Assembly: GCA_000310025.1 (NCBI GenBank)
Contig: FN649727.1
Span: forward strand, 5,556,027-5,620,026
DNA length: 64,000 nucleotides
Direction of reading: 5' to 3'
DNA from: Ectocarpus siliculosus
Taxonomy: Eukaryota; Sar; Phaeophyceae; Ectocarpales; Ectocarpaceae
Shown here: piece after piece, positions 14,404 to 40,200 of the stretch
Layout: every line of letters begins with the position of its first letter
Numbering within the stretch: position 1 is the stretch's first letter
Program-made: the position numbers and the translations under genes
The notes under the pieces: model-generated
Databases searched by the model: none
Seen by the model: the letters and a program-made list of their open reading frames with translations, nothing else
Told to the model about the DNA's origin: nothing

Positions 14404-17400
14404 ATGTCTTCCAACGTCACCGTACGGACGCGGAAGTTCATCAGGAATGCCCTGCTCGCGCGGAGGCAGATGGTGAGAGATCGATTTTTCTTAGGAGACG
14501 CGCGCTGGTGGGGATGGGCCGCTGTGCGGTGTGAGTGGTTGGCTTTGGAGGACCAGCAATTGAGAGAGAAGGATTGCTTCCAGCCGGGGGCGTCACGGTC
14601 CGTTGCTACCGCTACCCCAGCGTTTGATCTTACAAGACAGACGGCCTCGCTGCCCTTTTGTGGTAGAAAAGACGGTTTGCTGAAACCTCGGCCATGTGTT
14701 TTCCCATCACAGCAAGTCCTATCCAAAAACAAGGCGCTTGGCAGCGCAGCAGCAGCAGTGGAGCCAAACCTATGTGGACCCCGCCGCGGCATGGCAGTCC
14801 AAGTCGGATGCTGACATCTAGGGATGCTTGTCTGCTGTAGATGGGTCTTGCACGTCCATGAATCCCGCTTGCTGCGGACTGCCCTCACGCGAACACAAGG
14901 CTGTGTCCATGGGGTGTACATCTGCTGCTGTGTTGCCCTGCCGTGCGATGTGTCGCCTGGAGAGTCTCAAAAACCAGTATTACAACACCCGCACGGCGTT
15001 CATGGCACCCTTACAGCTACGCTTGCAGAGATGGGAAACGGCGGTAAACCGCCCTGTTTGCTTTTCAAACTGGAGAAGACTGCGCACGAATTCCTCATCC
15101 CCGTTCTATAGAAAGTTCCGGGGATGTGCTGTAAAATGCGGCAGAGCGCGGTGCTGTTTGCTGTACGCTTTGTGTCCAGCGAGCCACCAGCAATAGCTTG
15201 AGCATTCGAAAGTTTTGCGTGATCCGAAAGCCGAAAGGCTGCGGGCACGTGTATTTTGGCGTTGTAGACTACTCCAAATTGCCACAGGTGATGCTGCTGT
15301 CTGTCAAAGGGTGCACCACGGCTCTGCCGCACCACCTTCGTTACGGGTACTACCGAGCTATAGAGCTATTTATTTAGTAAGTAGATACAGCTGCCCCGGC
15401 AACGTCACCCCCCGGCCCCCCCGGATTTGACTCCCGGCCGAGCCCCCAGCAGACAGCAGTTGACGCGAGGAGGTTACCAAACCACCAAAGCGACCGGAAC
15501 GCTGTCTCCATTTTTCATTCTTGTTGTTGGCACAGCAAAGACAGAAGTTGGCAGTAAATTGCTTCTGTCGCTGGAGCTCTTTCGTACCACCCACATGTCC
15601 ACCACCATGGCGACAGCAGTCCCGCTCTATCCACAACATACAGATCCTGGTGTCCCATTCGTTTGCTGGAGGTACCCCTTGAAACAATGTTTACAACCCT
15701 GTGAGCTCTTCTAGCACCACCGGAGGTGCCAATTGTGTGTGTTTACTCATTGGCATCCATCACGCTGTGTGTGTGTCGGTCCCATATGTGTATGGTGCCG
15801 ATCTCCACACCTTTCGGGGTATGTACTTGTATTAATGTTTGGCGTATCGGTGAGTGTCACACAGGAGGAAGGTCACGCAGGAGGGATTGTTTTTTGTTTT
15901 TCAAATGTCAGGATGTGCACTTATCGTTACGTGAGATACAACTAGTGGCGTGTGATTCACCATCACAGAGAATGAACGGCGTGATCCATCGACTGCGGCC
16001 GCATTTCCCTTTCTCTGGGTTGGTTGTCGTGTCGTGTGGTTCCCCTCCCGCTTGCCCACCAACCATCGTAGTCATGCGCAAGGGCGATGCTGCCCCGTCT
16101 CATGCGTCCGACTGCAGTGAAGATTGCTTCGCCGTGTGCTTGTGCGTGCGCTTTAAATCTCCCCCCTCCTGTGTTTGCCTTACTGAGACCTGTTTCATTG
16201 GCTTTTTGACCACCAGCCCTTGGCTCACACGCTCTCTCTCTGTGCTTGTATCCGCCTTGTGTGCGAAGGTCGTGGACATCATCCACCCCGGCGTGGCCAA
16301 CGTCTCCAAGACCGAGCTCGGGGAGATGATCGCGAAGGTTAGTCTTTGCCTGAAATGTTTGTCAAGCCGTTGTGTGCTGACGTCTTATTCTGTTGGCACG
16401 GAAAAGAGGGGCGGGCGATGGAATGCTAGCTTCGCACACTGCGCGATAACGACGGTCGTGGCATGCCACTACAGCGGTCCCTGTTGGCTGCTGTCCTGTG
16501 CCATGTTTTTGTCTTGATCATGACAGTGCCAAGCCTGGAGTCCCTGCCCATTAATTTTCATGTCAATACGGAATCGCGAACACTGCTGTCGCCTGCCGTA
16601 CGAGTGCAATGGGGGGGGGGGGGTGAAGAGTGCTACGTATTTGCATGACCATTGGACGGCCGCCCTTTGACCACGATGACGACAAGCTTTGATCTTAGTC
16701 GCAAACACTGAGGACGAATTAAGCGTCATCCATTTCTCGAGTGGTTTCAAACGGTGCCCATGTACAGTTACAGCGTAATTCTTTTCAGGTTTGATTGGAG
16801 CTCGGGGTAGCCGAACAACCTTCAAGATTTTGGTCGAAAACAGCAAGGACGGGTTTAGCAGGGTTTCCCACTCCTTCCATTGGTTTCGATGGGTTTTTTT
16901 CCTGGTGTGGGTTTGAGCATTGTTGTCTTTTGTCGTGTGAGAGACTGGGTAAGAGTAGCCTTCCATCACCTTTGGGCAGCCGTACTTCGACCACGATGAC
17001 GACAAGCTTTAATCTTAGTCGCAAACACTGAGGACGAATTAAGCGTCATCCATTTCTCGAGTGGCTTCGAACGGCTTGTTGCTGTGGTGTTGGATGTTTT
17101 TGTTTTATTTTAGTTGTGCGAGGGAGTGGGGCAAGAATATTTTTCGATTTCCTTGGGGCGGCCGTACTTGGACCACGATGACGACAAGCTTTAATCTTAG
17201 TCGCAAACACTGAGGACGAATTAAGCGTCATCCATTTCTCGAGTGGCTTCGAACTGCTTGTTGCTGTGGTGTGGATGTTTTTGTTTTTATGCTAATTGTG
17301 CCAGGGAGTGGGCCAGACTAATTTTCGATTTCCTTGGGGCGGCCGTACTTGGACCACAATGACAAGCTTTAATCTTAGTCGCAAACACTGAGGACGAATT

Positions 17401-18919
17401 AAGCGTCATCCATTTCTCGAGTGGCTTCGAACGGCTTGTTGCTGTGGTGTGGATGTTTTTGTTTTATTTTAGTTGTGCGAGGGAGTGGGGCAAGAATATT
17501 TTTCGATTTCCTTGGGGCGGCCGTACTTGGACCACGATGACGACAAGCTTTAATCTTAGTCGCAAACACTGAGGACGAATTAAGCGTCATCCATTTCTCG
17601 AGTGGCTTCGAACGGCTTGTTGTGGTGTGGATGGTTGCGATGTTGTTTTATTCGGGCGGGGGACGGAAGAGCGAAATATTTTCATGGTCTTTGGGCGACC
17701 ATACTTGGACCACGATGACGACAAGCTTTAATCTTAGTCGCAAACACTGAGGACGAATTAAGCGTCATCCATTTCTCGAGTGGTTTGGAGCTGTAACCCA
17801 TCCATGTTATCGCTCTTGCTTGCAATTGATACATGTGTACTTCTTGTTTTTGCTCGTTCTATAGGCCGTGCTTCATGGTACCTTGCAAAGCACATTTTGT
17901 ATTTCGGCAGCACGACCTCATTTTTTGGTGCAACGATCAGACTGCCTTATCAACGGTGTTGGTGAAGCGATGGCACGGCGTACTTCTGTTTTGGGATTTG
18001 TTCGTCTCTGTTGGTCGGTTTTCGTGATGAAACTGGAGCTGCTGCTCACCGCCAACTCGACGGCCGCGTACCCCCCCCCCCCCTCCCTGAACCTCCCTCG
18101 AGGCTAAACACACGCGTATTTTCGAAGCAAGCACCTTCGCCAGAATGCGCTGCGGAAGTTTTTTCGTGAAAAATTCAGTCCGTGTCCAATCTTGTACCCC
18201 GCCTGTCTCTCTGTCTCTTTCTCTGCGCATGTGCGCCCGAGCAGAAGTTCCGCGTGTCGGACGCGACGATGGTGACCCTCTTCGGCTTCCGGACCCACTT
18301 CGGTGGGGGCAAGAGCACCGGCTTCTGCCTCATTTACGACAGCGTGGAGGACATGAAGAAGTTTGAGCCCAAGCACCGTCTCGCACGGGCGGGTCTCCAG
18401 GTGTGTGTTTTGAGCCGTGGCCTGAAACAGACTGTTTTCAGAAACGTTCTTGGTACATTTGTGGTGCATGGTAGCGGTTTTGAGACGTTTTTTTTTGTCA
18501 TGTCGCGACTCTTGCTGTTGCTGTTGTTTTCGTGGTCTTGGCCCTACAAAATATTTCCGGTCTCTGCTCGGTACCTTCTAACGTACGGCGGGTTGGAGTA
18601 AAACGGCGCTAGTGCTGTGAGCGCTGATTTGAAGTGAAGACAATAAAAAAAAGTATGTGGGACAAAGCAGTTCGATACACAACTCAGCTTGTTTGCATTC
18701 TCTTCTTTGTCAACAAACGTCGAAGACTGTTAAGCGATTGTCCCAACTTTCGAATGTCTCACACACTCTTTTGTGTGTTGTGTTTTTTTTTCTTCCTTGT
18801 TTCAGGACAAGAAGGAGACCTCCCGCAAGCAGATCAAGGAGGCCAAGAACAGGCAGAAGAAGATCCGCGGCACCGGTCGCCGTATCGCCAAGCACAAGGC
18901 GAAGAAGGCCGCCAAGTAG
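14404..18919 (+). CDS. RPS24: 40S ribosomal protein S24 (eS24)
   Basis: eS24 is a structural protein of the small ribosomal subunit needed for 18S rRNA processing in other eukaryotes. Exons 14404-14472, 16269-16337, 18245-18400 and 18806-18919 (stop TAG) all join in phase 0 to give 135 residues, the normal size (human about 130). Family hallmarks are the TVRTRKF motif at residues 5-11, [15 protein letters not shown] in exon 3, EPKHRLAR near the end of exon 3, and a Lys/Arg-rich tail starting DKKETSRKQ. The ATG at 14404 is preceded by ACC and begins [11 protein letters not shown], matching the family start. Introns are about 1.8, 1.9 and 0.4 kb; the second holds the hairpin repeat array. An AATAAA at 19205-19210 is a candidate poly(A) signal. 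Confidence 0.97.
16671..17783 (+). repeat. Six-copy array of a 74-bp hairpin unit in RPS24 intron 2
   Basis: Copies are at 16671-16744, 16991-17064, 17173-17246, 17354-17424, 17532-17605 and 17710-17783. Spacing between starts is 320, 182, 181, 178 and 178 bp. Each core runs from CCAC to GTGG and folds on paper into stacked stems: CCAC with GTGG, GATGACG with CGTCATC, CTTTAAT with ATTAAG, CTTAGT with ACTGAG, closed by a CGCAAAC loop. Cores are almost invariant, while the spacer between copies 1 and 2 is unrelated to the others and the spacer before copy 6 is clearly diverged. Copy 4 lacks three bases in the 5' arm but keeps a shortened stem. The array lies on the sense strand of a ribosomal protein intron, a common place for small non-coding RNAs. 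The function is unknown. Confidence 0.85.
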
Positions 18920-29200: not shown

Positions 29201-29991
29201 TTTGTTGTTGAGTTGATTGCTGCCGACGTTTCGGTGGGGGTGTTGGAGTGCGCAAGGTTTAGGGCTGGACCTCGTGTCCCATCCTCCGTAGGCGCGTTGT
29301 TTAAGGCACCATCGGGGGTCACGCCAGCTCTAGGCGATGCGCCTTGTGCCCTTAGGAGCGATGCGCCATCGAAGGTTGGTGACTGTCCATCATCAACGTG
29401 CCACTCCCCTCCTTGACTAGTTTCGCCCCCCCGTTGTGATCGTGCTCCTTGAGCTTCACGTGTAAAAAAAAAAACGTGTCCATCATCGACGTGCCACTCC
29501 CCTCCCTGACTGCCTTCGCCCCCCCGTTCACCGTGCTCCTTGAGCTTCACGTGTGAAAAAAAAAACACTTGTTCCTTACACATACAGGCACCCCACCCCC
29601 TTTCGGCGTTGGTACACTTTGGGTACGGAGAAAATCGAGACAGAGAGAGAGAGATGATATGTGTACACCTGATTCCGACACACTAATCGCCAAACTTACC
29701 CCCCTCCCCCCTCCTCCAACCCGCAACGAAAAAAGGTACGACGCGGCTCTGGCGATGACCAAGCACTTCTTTCCCGAGGAGAGCGAAAGCATTACCGACG
29801 AGCAGAAGAAACGCCTCCAGGACGTCTTCAGCGACGAGGCCGCCGCGGTGCGGTGCAAGAGGACGTCCAAGCGCGGAGGCGGCGCCGACGGGGGCCAGCT
29901 GACGCCCGCCACCGTGGAGCAGATGCTGGGCGAGCACGACAAGGTGGACGACTTCCTCGATGCTCTGGAGAGGCTGGGGGATCCCCTGTGA
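20205..29991 (+). CDS. BCS1-like AAA ATPase, copy A
   Basis: AAA-family ATPase of the BCS1 type; the best-known relative is a mitochondrial inner-membrane translocase for the Rieske protein, but organelle targeting is not shown here. Exons: 20205-20264, 22242-22511, 22731-22835, 23292-23402, 23924-24031, 24748-24938, 25515-25634, 26284-26539, 26950-27366, 27916-28440, 28911-29050, 29736-29991 (stop TGA), giving 852 residues. Walker A GPPGTGKT is at 374-381, Walker B FEDVD at 438-442, sensor-1 N743 and RPGR at 754-757. A hydrophobic stretch in exon 2 may be a membrane segment. Between Walker B and sensor 1 sits a low-complexity insert (about 452-710): Gly/Ser/Lys-rich in exon 9, then Pro/Ser-rich and acidic in exon 10. 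Copies B and C have only about 25-30 residues there and lack that intron. The short first exon ending in MH and the exon phases match B and C, which fixes the start. An assembly gap lies in intron 5. Confidence 0.88.
22159..22178. repeat. 20-bp perfect palindrome in intron 1 of gene A
   Basis: The sequence is self-complementary throughout, built on ATGC repeats with CACG/CGTG ends. It lies about 64 bp before the exon 2 acceptor. It may be only an ATGC microsatellite. Confidence 0.8.
24564..24663. other. Assembly gap (100 N) in intron 5 of gene A
   Basis: Exactly 100 N, flanked on both sides by long poly-C runs. The homopolymers probably stopped the assembly. The exons on either side (ending 24031, starting 24748) join in frame, so no coding exon needs to be missing. 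Confidence 0.99.
29051..29095. repeat. 9-bp minisatellite starting at a splice donor of gene A
   Basis: Five units of RTGAGTCAY (GTGAGTCAT, three of ATGAGTCAC, ATGAGTCAT) begin exactly at the donor of the exon ending 29050. The first unit supplies the GTGAGT donor; later units carry ATGAGT and so are not donors. Each contains TGAGTCA. Confidence 0.9.
29385..29565. repeat. 93-bp tandem duplication in the last intron of gene A
   Basis: Two copies (29385-29477 and 29478-29565) begin GTCCATCATC and end in a CACGTGT then poly-A stretch. A few substitutions and small indels separate them. Confidence 0.85.
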
Positions 29992-37200: not shown

Positions 37201-40200
37201 CACCCATCCTGAACGTTTGGCCGGAAGACGCAATTCTCGCTATTTTTGTTGTTGGGGAGGTCGAGTAGGGGGGCTGTTTGTGTGTGCACTCGGCAGGATA
37301 CTAATCTCCAAGATCTCCGGGGGTTACGCAGATAAATATTGTACATGATGGGTGTGATGGAGTTGACGCGTAGGCTCTGCTTGCATGCCCATGTCTCTCA
37401 CTCGTTAATCGTTAATCAAGAAACTTGAGTCACTCCTTTGTGCAACACGCTCTCGACAAGAGCCCGTGAGCGTGATAGCATAGTACACGCGCCGACACCC
37501 TGAACACGATAGGTACAAACGGGAACAGGGGACGCTCACCTCGCTCGCGGCATCCACTTTATGTTTTCTCCATCATATACAAGTACAGCCTAGCCCATCT
37601 CTGCAAGCAGTGCAACAACACTTGCGGACGTCCTGCCCGCACGTTGCTCAATCGCTACTACTACACACCGCAGGGGATGCGAAGGAGCGAAGGGAAACCA
37701 CATACATACCTCGTGCACGTACATGGCATGGCGTTAAACGTCGCGTTTGGATTGGAAACAAATATGCTCCGGAATACGTCACCTTTGAAGCCGGAAATCA
37801 ACCAACCAACCAAGCCATTTCTTTGCTGCGTTGTCCCCGTTCCGCGGGCACCAGCTGCGCCTCATTTTTGTGATCTTCCCTTCTTGTCTCGTTCTCTCTC
37901 CCCCCCCCCCCTTCTCTGTCTCTCTGTCTGTCTCTCTAGACGAAGGACGTCGAAAAGCTCCCCGAGACAGAGGCGTCGTCCAAGAGCTCCTCCCGCAGGG
38001 CCCCACCGACGATTGTCGACTACACCTTCCGGTGCGCCGGGCCGGAGGGACAGGAGAAGGTGAAGAACTTCATCACCAATGCGTACGCTTGGTACACCAA
38101 AGAAATGGAGTCCACAGAAGACAACGCGAGATACATGTGAGTCAAAACAAAAGCAAGCCCAGATGGTGCAGTGGGCCAATGGGCATGTGGGGACAAACAA
38201 GGTCGAGTTCCATGAACAGGACGATGTACACACGTGGACACGTCGTACGTGAATAAGGAGCAGATACGCGGGGAGTGTCTAGGTACATACACGTCATTCG
38301 AGGCACACATTGGCACTCAACTTATTCACCAGGAGTCGTTTTCTTCTTGCTGAACTGCCCTACGAGAGAGGATAACTTAAAGACAATGTCATAATTTTTC
38401 CCATGCTACAAAGGAAGACTCGTCCTTGTCACATCCCGGAATATCCTCTGACTTGTTCCCGGGGGACACTATCTTTTTTGCCCACAACGATATCCCCGGG
38501 GGTATCTCTACGGTAAGGGGGACACGTTCAAAAAAAAAAAAAAAACGGGCACAAGTTGCCCCGGGGAAATCTACCGGAAACACACGCACACACACAACTA
38601 CCTCACACACACAACTACCTCACCTCATCTGCTTCACGATGTCTGGTCAAAACACCATCTACGAACAACAAGAACTCTGGTTCGGTTGCACCGATTTCGA
38701 AAAGCGATGTTTGTACCATCATGATACCTTATTGCTAAACGCGCGGACGGAGCCCGTGAACCTCGGACCTTATTCCGACGGCATTCAACAGAACACACCA
38801 ACCGATTTCCATGCACTCCTCCCCCAGGGACGCGTTTTCTATGAGCAAAAATCCCCCGGGGACACGTTTTTTATGCGCAGAAAAAATACGTCCCCGGGGA
38901 TATGTCTACGGCAGGGGGGAGATCATAAAAAAATACAAAAAACAAATTGTCCCCGGGATAATTCAGCGTTTTTATGCCCATTTCGGCCAAATTGGGGGGG
39001 GGGGGGGGGGGTACTCATAGTCGTGCATGCCGTAGTCGTTACACCATTGACCTCGCATCTCTACAAAGCCGGGGCGGAGCATGCCGGGTTCTCACCGGAC
39101 CAGGCTCTCACATCACCAAGCGCGAAGCGCCGTGAGGTATTCGGCGAGTCGCATGAAGGGTGCGCTGCATCCTGCTTAGGGTGTTCGGCATCTTGTGCTT
39201 GCTTCCTTGCGTACGGATGACAACTGCGTATGACTTAATTTATTTTCTGGTGCTTTCACTTCCAGAGACAGTTGTAAGCACTGTGTAACTGCCTCGAGGA
39301 TGCTTGACCATTTTAACACAACGTGGTGCGATTATCCCCCTTGCGCGGAGTGAGGGTTCTCCACCCCGTACAACATGATCTACTCGACCACCATTATGGT
39401 TACCGCCAAAAAAAAAACAGAGGTAAAAAAAACGGTTGCCGAGTTCACGAGGTGAAATGGCTTGTTGTACAACGTCGTTGCCAAGCGACGAAAACCCAAT
39501 CCCGGTGGCAAACACCGAGGGGGAGGCTTGCTTTACTAGGTCGTTGCAAAGCGACGAAAACCCAACCCCGATGGCAATTACCGGGGGGGGGGGATAATTC
39601 AGAGGAGGCACTAAGGATATGTCTAGCCGTGGCGATGTCCAAATGTGACAGAGCGTCTCTTGTTGGTGACAAGTATCACCCACGCTCTGGACGTCGCCAT
39701 GCGTAACTCACAAAAGATGTATGTGGTGCATGGGCAACGGTCATGATGCGGTCCGTCTGGGTGCCGGACTGATGGAAGTTTGACCACTCGTTGATCACGT
39801 TTACAAGTCATAAAACGACATTTAGCACCATGAGAACACAACGGTATCTATCTTCGGTTCGGAAGATGACTTGGGAACAGTAACATGGGGGAGACCCGAC
39901 ACTCTAAACTGTTTTGTCAAGACATTGGTGATGGAATACCTGGAATGGTCTGTTCGGGAATGTCGAGCAGAAAGGGAATAAGAAATGCTAATATACCTCC
40001 CATCCATGCGAGTGAGAGAGAAGAAACAAGAGCCCCAAATATGTTTCTTATGCTGCCATCTCCACAATCAACGTACAGAGTCGACTCAAAGCACGCACAC
40101 GCAAACACGAAAACAGCAGCAAAGTTGGAGCCAAAATCTGAACGAAAGCAATACGACAAAAAGCAAACTATCGGAGCACCTCGTTCGGGGAGGTGATTCG

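Follow-up and report, generated by a model that had tools for sequence, protein, structure and literature searches.

Box C/D snoRNAs are recognised by the motifs RUGAUGA (C box) and CUGA (D box) together with terminal inverted repeats, a definition given in the part of PMC7671301 available to us. In the Ostreococcus tauri clusters treated in that same part, the C/D snoRNAs are intronic and their hosts are tied to ribosome biogenesis or RNA processing, and the locus described here shares both traits. For Ectocarpus itself, snoRNAs were predicted with CDseeker and ACAseeker (PMC4513859, available part), and the loci reported below may already stand, unremarked, in the supplementary lists of that paper; a literature search returned no paper that we recognised as describing an RPS24-intron snoRNA cluster. 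Here we analysed a window of 64,000 nucleotides of Ectocarpus siliculosus DNA (contig FN649727.1, positions 5,556,027 to 5,620,026), in which intron 2 of the RPS24 gene carries six near-identical units. We read these units, with a probability of about 0.88, as tandem copies of one box C/D snoRNA, about 76 nt long and encoded in the intron, that would guide 2′-O-methylation of the large-subunit (LSU) rRNA. The sequence comparisons presented below indicate that the array is a further case of a well-known kind of RNA, and neither a new hairpin RNA nor a satellite.

The host gene (14404..18919, + strand) was identified as RPS24 by tblastn, by the PF01282 domain (E 5.4e-27 with three exons joined) and by splice sequences. 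The tblastn query was human RPS24, and it located four exons on the + strand at about 14404-14472, 16269-16337, 18245-18400 and 18806-18919, bounds that are approximate, with the splice points read by eye. The array lies in the second intron (about 16338..18244, +) and consists of six copies of a 76-nt core (GACCAC...GTGG) on the sense (+) strand, namely c1 (16669..16744), c2 (16989..17064), c3 (17171..17246), c4 (17352..17424), c5 (17530..17605) and c6 (17708..17783). An invariant 37-mer, starting in these copies at 16694, 17014, 17196, 17374, 17555 and 17733, gives spacings of 320, 182, 178, 181 and 178 along the array, and none of 100 shuffled sequences in the control on this 37-mer gave six matches. 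The cores of c2, which represents the majority sequence, c3, c5 and c6 are identical in every pair (76/76), while c1 departs from them by a single A-to-G change (1/76 positions) and c4 in four columns, a 3-nt gap and one G-to-A, located in the C-box region. An earlier note on this DNA had described six near-identical units of 74 nt within an intron of a ribosomal-protein gene, in sense orientation, with an A-to-G change in copy 1 and a 3-bp loss in copy 4. The 37-mers and the core alignment confirm the six units, tblastn and PF01282 bear out the host, and both changes are present, that of c4 being accompanied by the G-to-A; a conserved block does exist, its length being slightly greater than proposed, at about 76 nt.

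In the 189-Mb genome, as far as it is readable, the core matched six times, always at the RPS24 locus; the count is a lower bound, and parts of the genome read N. Searching the genome for the guide plus box pattern with up to two mismatches returned six exact matches and three with two mismatches, against one for the reversed-pattern control, and the exact 37-mer gave no match in either the viral or the prokaryotic collection (0 and 0). Tandem Repeats Finder reported two-copy repeats of 93 nt (window 29384-29566) and 66 nt (39459-39589).

The cores and their surroundings have diverged to very different extents. In all 15 copy pairs, between 71 and all 76 of the core positions are identical, whereas the flanks, taken as 40 nt on each side, are identical at only 36/80 positions between c1 and c2, 38/80 between c2 and c6, and 44/80 between c1 and c6; Fisher tests of core versus flank in four chosen pairs gave p values of 6e-12 to 5e-16. 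Among c2-c5 the flanks are still 70-100% identical (28-40/40 per side), and we therefore regard these copies as recent duplicates. The spacer 3′ of c1 is unrelated and c6 has drifted on both flanks, so that the unrelated spacer between copies 1 and 2 and the drifted spacer before copy 6 reported previously are both seen, the drift extending also to the 3′ flank of c6. That the cores were kept while the c1 and c6 flanks are only about half identical points to selection on the core, in agreement with what the earlier note had preferred over simple satellite growth, a preference further upheld by the single-locus occurrence. Gene conversion limited to the core could alternatively keep the cores alike, and it would need the same borders each time.

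Each unit contains the elements of a box C/D snoRNA, in part in variant form (coordinates for c2, + strand). The strands CCAC (16991..16994) and GUGG (17061..17064) can pair as a terminal stem in all six copies, providing the inverted repeat of the C/D definition. Next to this stem lies a C box, AUGACGA (16996..17002), which matches RUGAUGA loosely, at 6/7 positions in five of the six copies and at 5/7 in c4, where it reads AUGACAA; the earlier note's view of GATGA as C-box-like is borne out. The terminal D position is occupied in 6/6 copies by CUCGA (17056..17060), where the canonical box would be CUGA. The CTGA likened earlier to a D box is found in the middle of the unit (17028..17031), at a D′ position, and is not terminal, its place beside the stem being taken by CUCGA. 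Relative to the usual motifs, AUGACGA and CUCGA each carry a pyrimidine substitution at what would normally be the U.U pair, and in the geometry of a kink-turn the GA of the C box would face the GA of CUCGA in a fitting register. A scan of the window for canonical C/D snoRNAs gave no candidate on either strand, with settings (at most one C-box mismatch, CUGA, and a terminal stem with five or more Watson-Crick pairs) that are blind to a unit with a 4-bp stem and CUCGA. No Rfam family reached its gathering score in the window, and at a relaxed threshold the only match was a chance one to CrcZ (E 3.7).

An antisense element, UUAAGCGUCAUCCAUUU (17039..17055 in c2, +), directly precedes CUCGA. Yeast rRNA sequence first suggested the LSU rRNA as its target. 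Against the Rfam LSU consensus, which is eukaryotic and not this genome's own rRNA, these 17 nt form 16 Watson-Crick pairs and one G.U (-24.9 kcal/mol) with model positions 1316-1332. With the LSU fragment L007, an IMG/VR contig that came from a pattern scan and whose first 589 bases match RF02543 (2e-126), 14 bp form directly before CUCGA (13 Watson-Crick and one G.U). Antisense elements of at least 10 nt ending at a D or D′ box are expected of C/D guides, and here the complementarity reaches 17 nt with the consensus and 14 nt with L007. When its position was left free, a run of at least 13 Watson-Crick pairs arose in 28/2000 trials with 5.6 kb of random sequence resembling rRNA, so the weight lies in the placement of the pairing next to the box and in its greater length, 17 nt, with the consensus; such a run ending 0-2 nt before a D or D′ box occurred in only 1 of 1500 random 5.6-kb sequences. 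Random units compared with L007 alone reached 13 in 6/5000 cases, L007 having been chosen for holding the target.

On this basis the LSU rRNA of the alga is predicted to read AAAUGGAUG(G/A)CGC near model positions 1316-1332. A pattern search of the readable genome for a copy of the LSU target gave no match, and no rDNA was present in a sample of 20 contig starts. Taken as a D′ guide, the stretch before the mid-unit CUGA made at most 6 pairs with the rRNA and U2 pieces compared, some 2.9 kb in all, and had no target among them; U2 snRNA was rejected as its target, since the pairing amounts to 12 bp in c1 (two of them G.U) and to only 10 in c2, and is not adjacent to the box. Some rRNA-like stretches came up besides: an isolated one on contig 229 (L033 1501-1593) has 81% identity to L007, its surroundings fall under the Rfam LSU cut-off, and it is perhaps a decayed piece of rDNA. 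Eukaryotic rRNA is also present on the IMG/VR contigs L007 (1-589), L008 (3632-4543) and L010 (3-188), and in L007 the LSU rRNA passes straight into non-rRNA, which looks like a chimeric assembly.

Counting five nucleotides back from the CUCGA of the unit leads to a G, position 1320 of the Rfam LSU model. This predicted site lies 143 model positions upstream of the equivalent of yeast G1450, which would place it, absent indels, near G1307 of the yeast 25S rRNA and near position 1317 in Arabidopsis. Between 1278 and 1377, Table 2 of PMC11542601 lists nothing for plants, and since human, yeast and algal sites enter this table only if they are conserved in plants, it does not settle whether the site is novel.

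The same genome offers internal controls for both the variant box and the local duplication. SNORD24 (RF00069) matched three times, with 63, 59.7 and 48.3 bits against a cut-off of 41, and among control genomes 11 of 14 gave matches at an E of 10, none of them above the cut-off. In all three matches the internal D′/C′ region reads UAUUUGCUAC(A/U)-CUCGA followed by GGGAUGACGACA, and the C′ string, GAUGACGACA, present in 3/3, contains the C-box string of the array unit, AUGACGA. In yeast, U24 is the guide for Gm1450 and Cm1437. When the five nucleotides are counted back from the C that opens CUCGA, the D′ guide of SNORD24 leads to model G1463, the equivalent of yeast Gm1450, and the D guide leads to model C1450, 13 positions away; Table 2 of PMC11542601 lists yeast Gm1450 and Cm1437, which are likewise 13 apart. 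The SNORD24 copies are located on contig 56 (L054 80-154, L054 412-486 and L055 64-138), and in the first of them the terminal C box is damaged, reading GATATTG, so that this copy may be decaying; the SNORD24 cores are identical at 61-68/75 positions and their flanks at 7-16/40. Four U14-like sequences (SNORD14, RF00016; 44.9-47.7 bits, E 4.5e-7 to 2.6e-6, below the 64-bit cut-off) form two local pairs (L050-L053) on contigs 16 and 61, with cores identical at 113/116 and 110/115 positions and dissimilar 40-nt flanks (7-17/40 ungapped). The local copies of both families show that snoRNA duplication with freely varying spacers is not confined to the RPS24 array in this genome. In the terminal D box both families retain CUGA, and this speaks against a fully canonical array unit.

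The units could instead be read as a hairpin non-coding RNA or a microRNA precursor, given that the cores can be folded into a hairpin, that c1 gains a G-U pair in it, and that intronic microRNAs on the same strand are common in Ectocarpus (PMC4513859, available part). The predicted folds argue against this, and we attach next to no probability to it. The fold of the majority copy (-15.8 kcal/mol) has a z score of -1.58, with 12/200 shuffles at least as good, that of c1 a z of -1.69 (13/200) and that of c4 a z of only -0.63 (50/200), so that in none of the three copies folded is the hairpin an unusually stable one; the arms bear large offset bulges, and Ectocarpus microRNAs rarely cluster, according to the part of PMC4513859 available. 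Of the four stacked stems described before, the majority copy, in its minimum-energy structure, forms the outer and apical ones and leaves the middle one open; in c1 the middle one forms through the G-U pair. With 12-13 of 200 shuffles folding equally well at z scores of about -1.6, the four-stem hairpin is not supported as the functional fold. The hairpin is weak and probably a by-product: its 7-bp outer stem consists of the C-box strand GAUGACG paired with the guide CGUCAUC, and would exist because the rRNA target, AUGGAUGGCG, resembles a C box, so that a guide complementary to it also matches GAUGACG in the unit itself. The hairpin, earlier held to be atypical for a C/D snoRNA, thus loses its force as an objection. 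Other candidates were rejected: a hammerhead ribozyme (a CTGAGGA...CGAA core-like string seen by eye, with misfitting helices and no ribozyme in the relaxed Rfam search), an H/ACA RNA (the 3′ end lacks an ACA box), an exon, coding or alternative (the frames are all short, and spacer indels by eye shift the frame) and a minus-strand RNA (fold z -0.55, no CUGA seen).

A functionless tandem repeat with a period of about 180 bp, of the kind the earlier note had named, as a nucleosomal satellite, as its main alternative, would account for the regular spacing of c2-c6 (178-182) and for the near-identical spacers of c2-c5. It would not explain why c1 and c6 hold the core between half-identical flanks, nor the rRNA pairing, and a satellite should occur at many loci, whereas the core occurs at one in the readable 189 Mb; we consider it very improbable. 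The location in intron 2 of RPS24, on the sense strand, would also suit a cis element regulating RPS24 splicing, for example through binding of the RPS24 protein, but we found no specific evidence for this, the LSU complementarity and the boxes common to SNORD24 would be left unexplained, and we give it hardly any credence. Closer to the preferred reading, and unlikely in our estimation, is a C/D-type RNA acting as an LSU folding chaperone in pre-60S assembly and not guiding methylation. The length of the 17-nt pairing, the divergent D box and the fact that the plant-based table (PMC11542601) maps no site to the corresponding position are all compatible with a chaperone, but the pairing stops right at the box, where that of methylation guides also ends, and CUCGA also follows the U24 guide whose count gives a known site.

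The box C/D snoRNA reading, which agrees with the earlier proposal of a candidate non-coding RNA family, suggests the following course. The units would be spliced out with intron 2 of RPS24 and trimmed to the CCAC/GUGG stem, where AUGACGA and CUCGA would fold into a kink-turn bound by the C/D proteins. Fibrillarin, NOP56/58 and 15.5K are the proteins expected on a stable RNA of this class. The 17 nt before CUCGA could then pair with the LSU rRNA sequence 5′-AAAUGGAUGGCGCUUAA-3′ (Rfam consensus), and under the five-nucleotide rule the G at model position 1320 would receive the 2′-O-methyl group, the six copies presumably raising the dose of a single guide. More tentatively, and at slightly less than even odds, this lineage may use a variant kink-turn, AUGACGA/CUCGA, in both terminal and internal positions, here in a six-copy guide for an LSU site near 1307 that falls outside the sites of the plant table. 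An apparent array of hairpins is in this way turned into a specific prediction of rRNA modification, and the variant box suggests that C/D searches requiring CUGA would miss variant-box snoRNAs in this lineage.

Compared with the O. tauri clusters, the RPS24 locus is set apart by one snoRNA repeated six times, a repetition that the available part of PMC7671301 does not describe. In Ectocarpus, this amplification of one guide within a ribosomal-protein intron has its counterpart in the local duplication of the U14-like and SNORD24 sequences. The unit and the U14-like sequences are both local multiples with conserved cores and dissimilar flanks, but the latter, of 115-116 nt and with a CUGA D box, have no visible sequence kinship to the unit. 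SNORD24/U24 differs in that the variant pair is internal, whereas it is terminal in the unit. The guide and the LSU target are not the same in the two, and the unit gives no match to RF00069. The two are nevertheless alike in CUCGA and GAUGACGACA, in a guide that ends at CUCGA, and in local copies with conserved cores.
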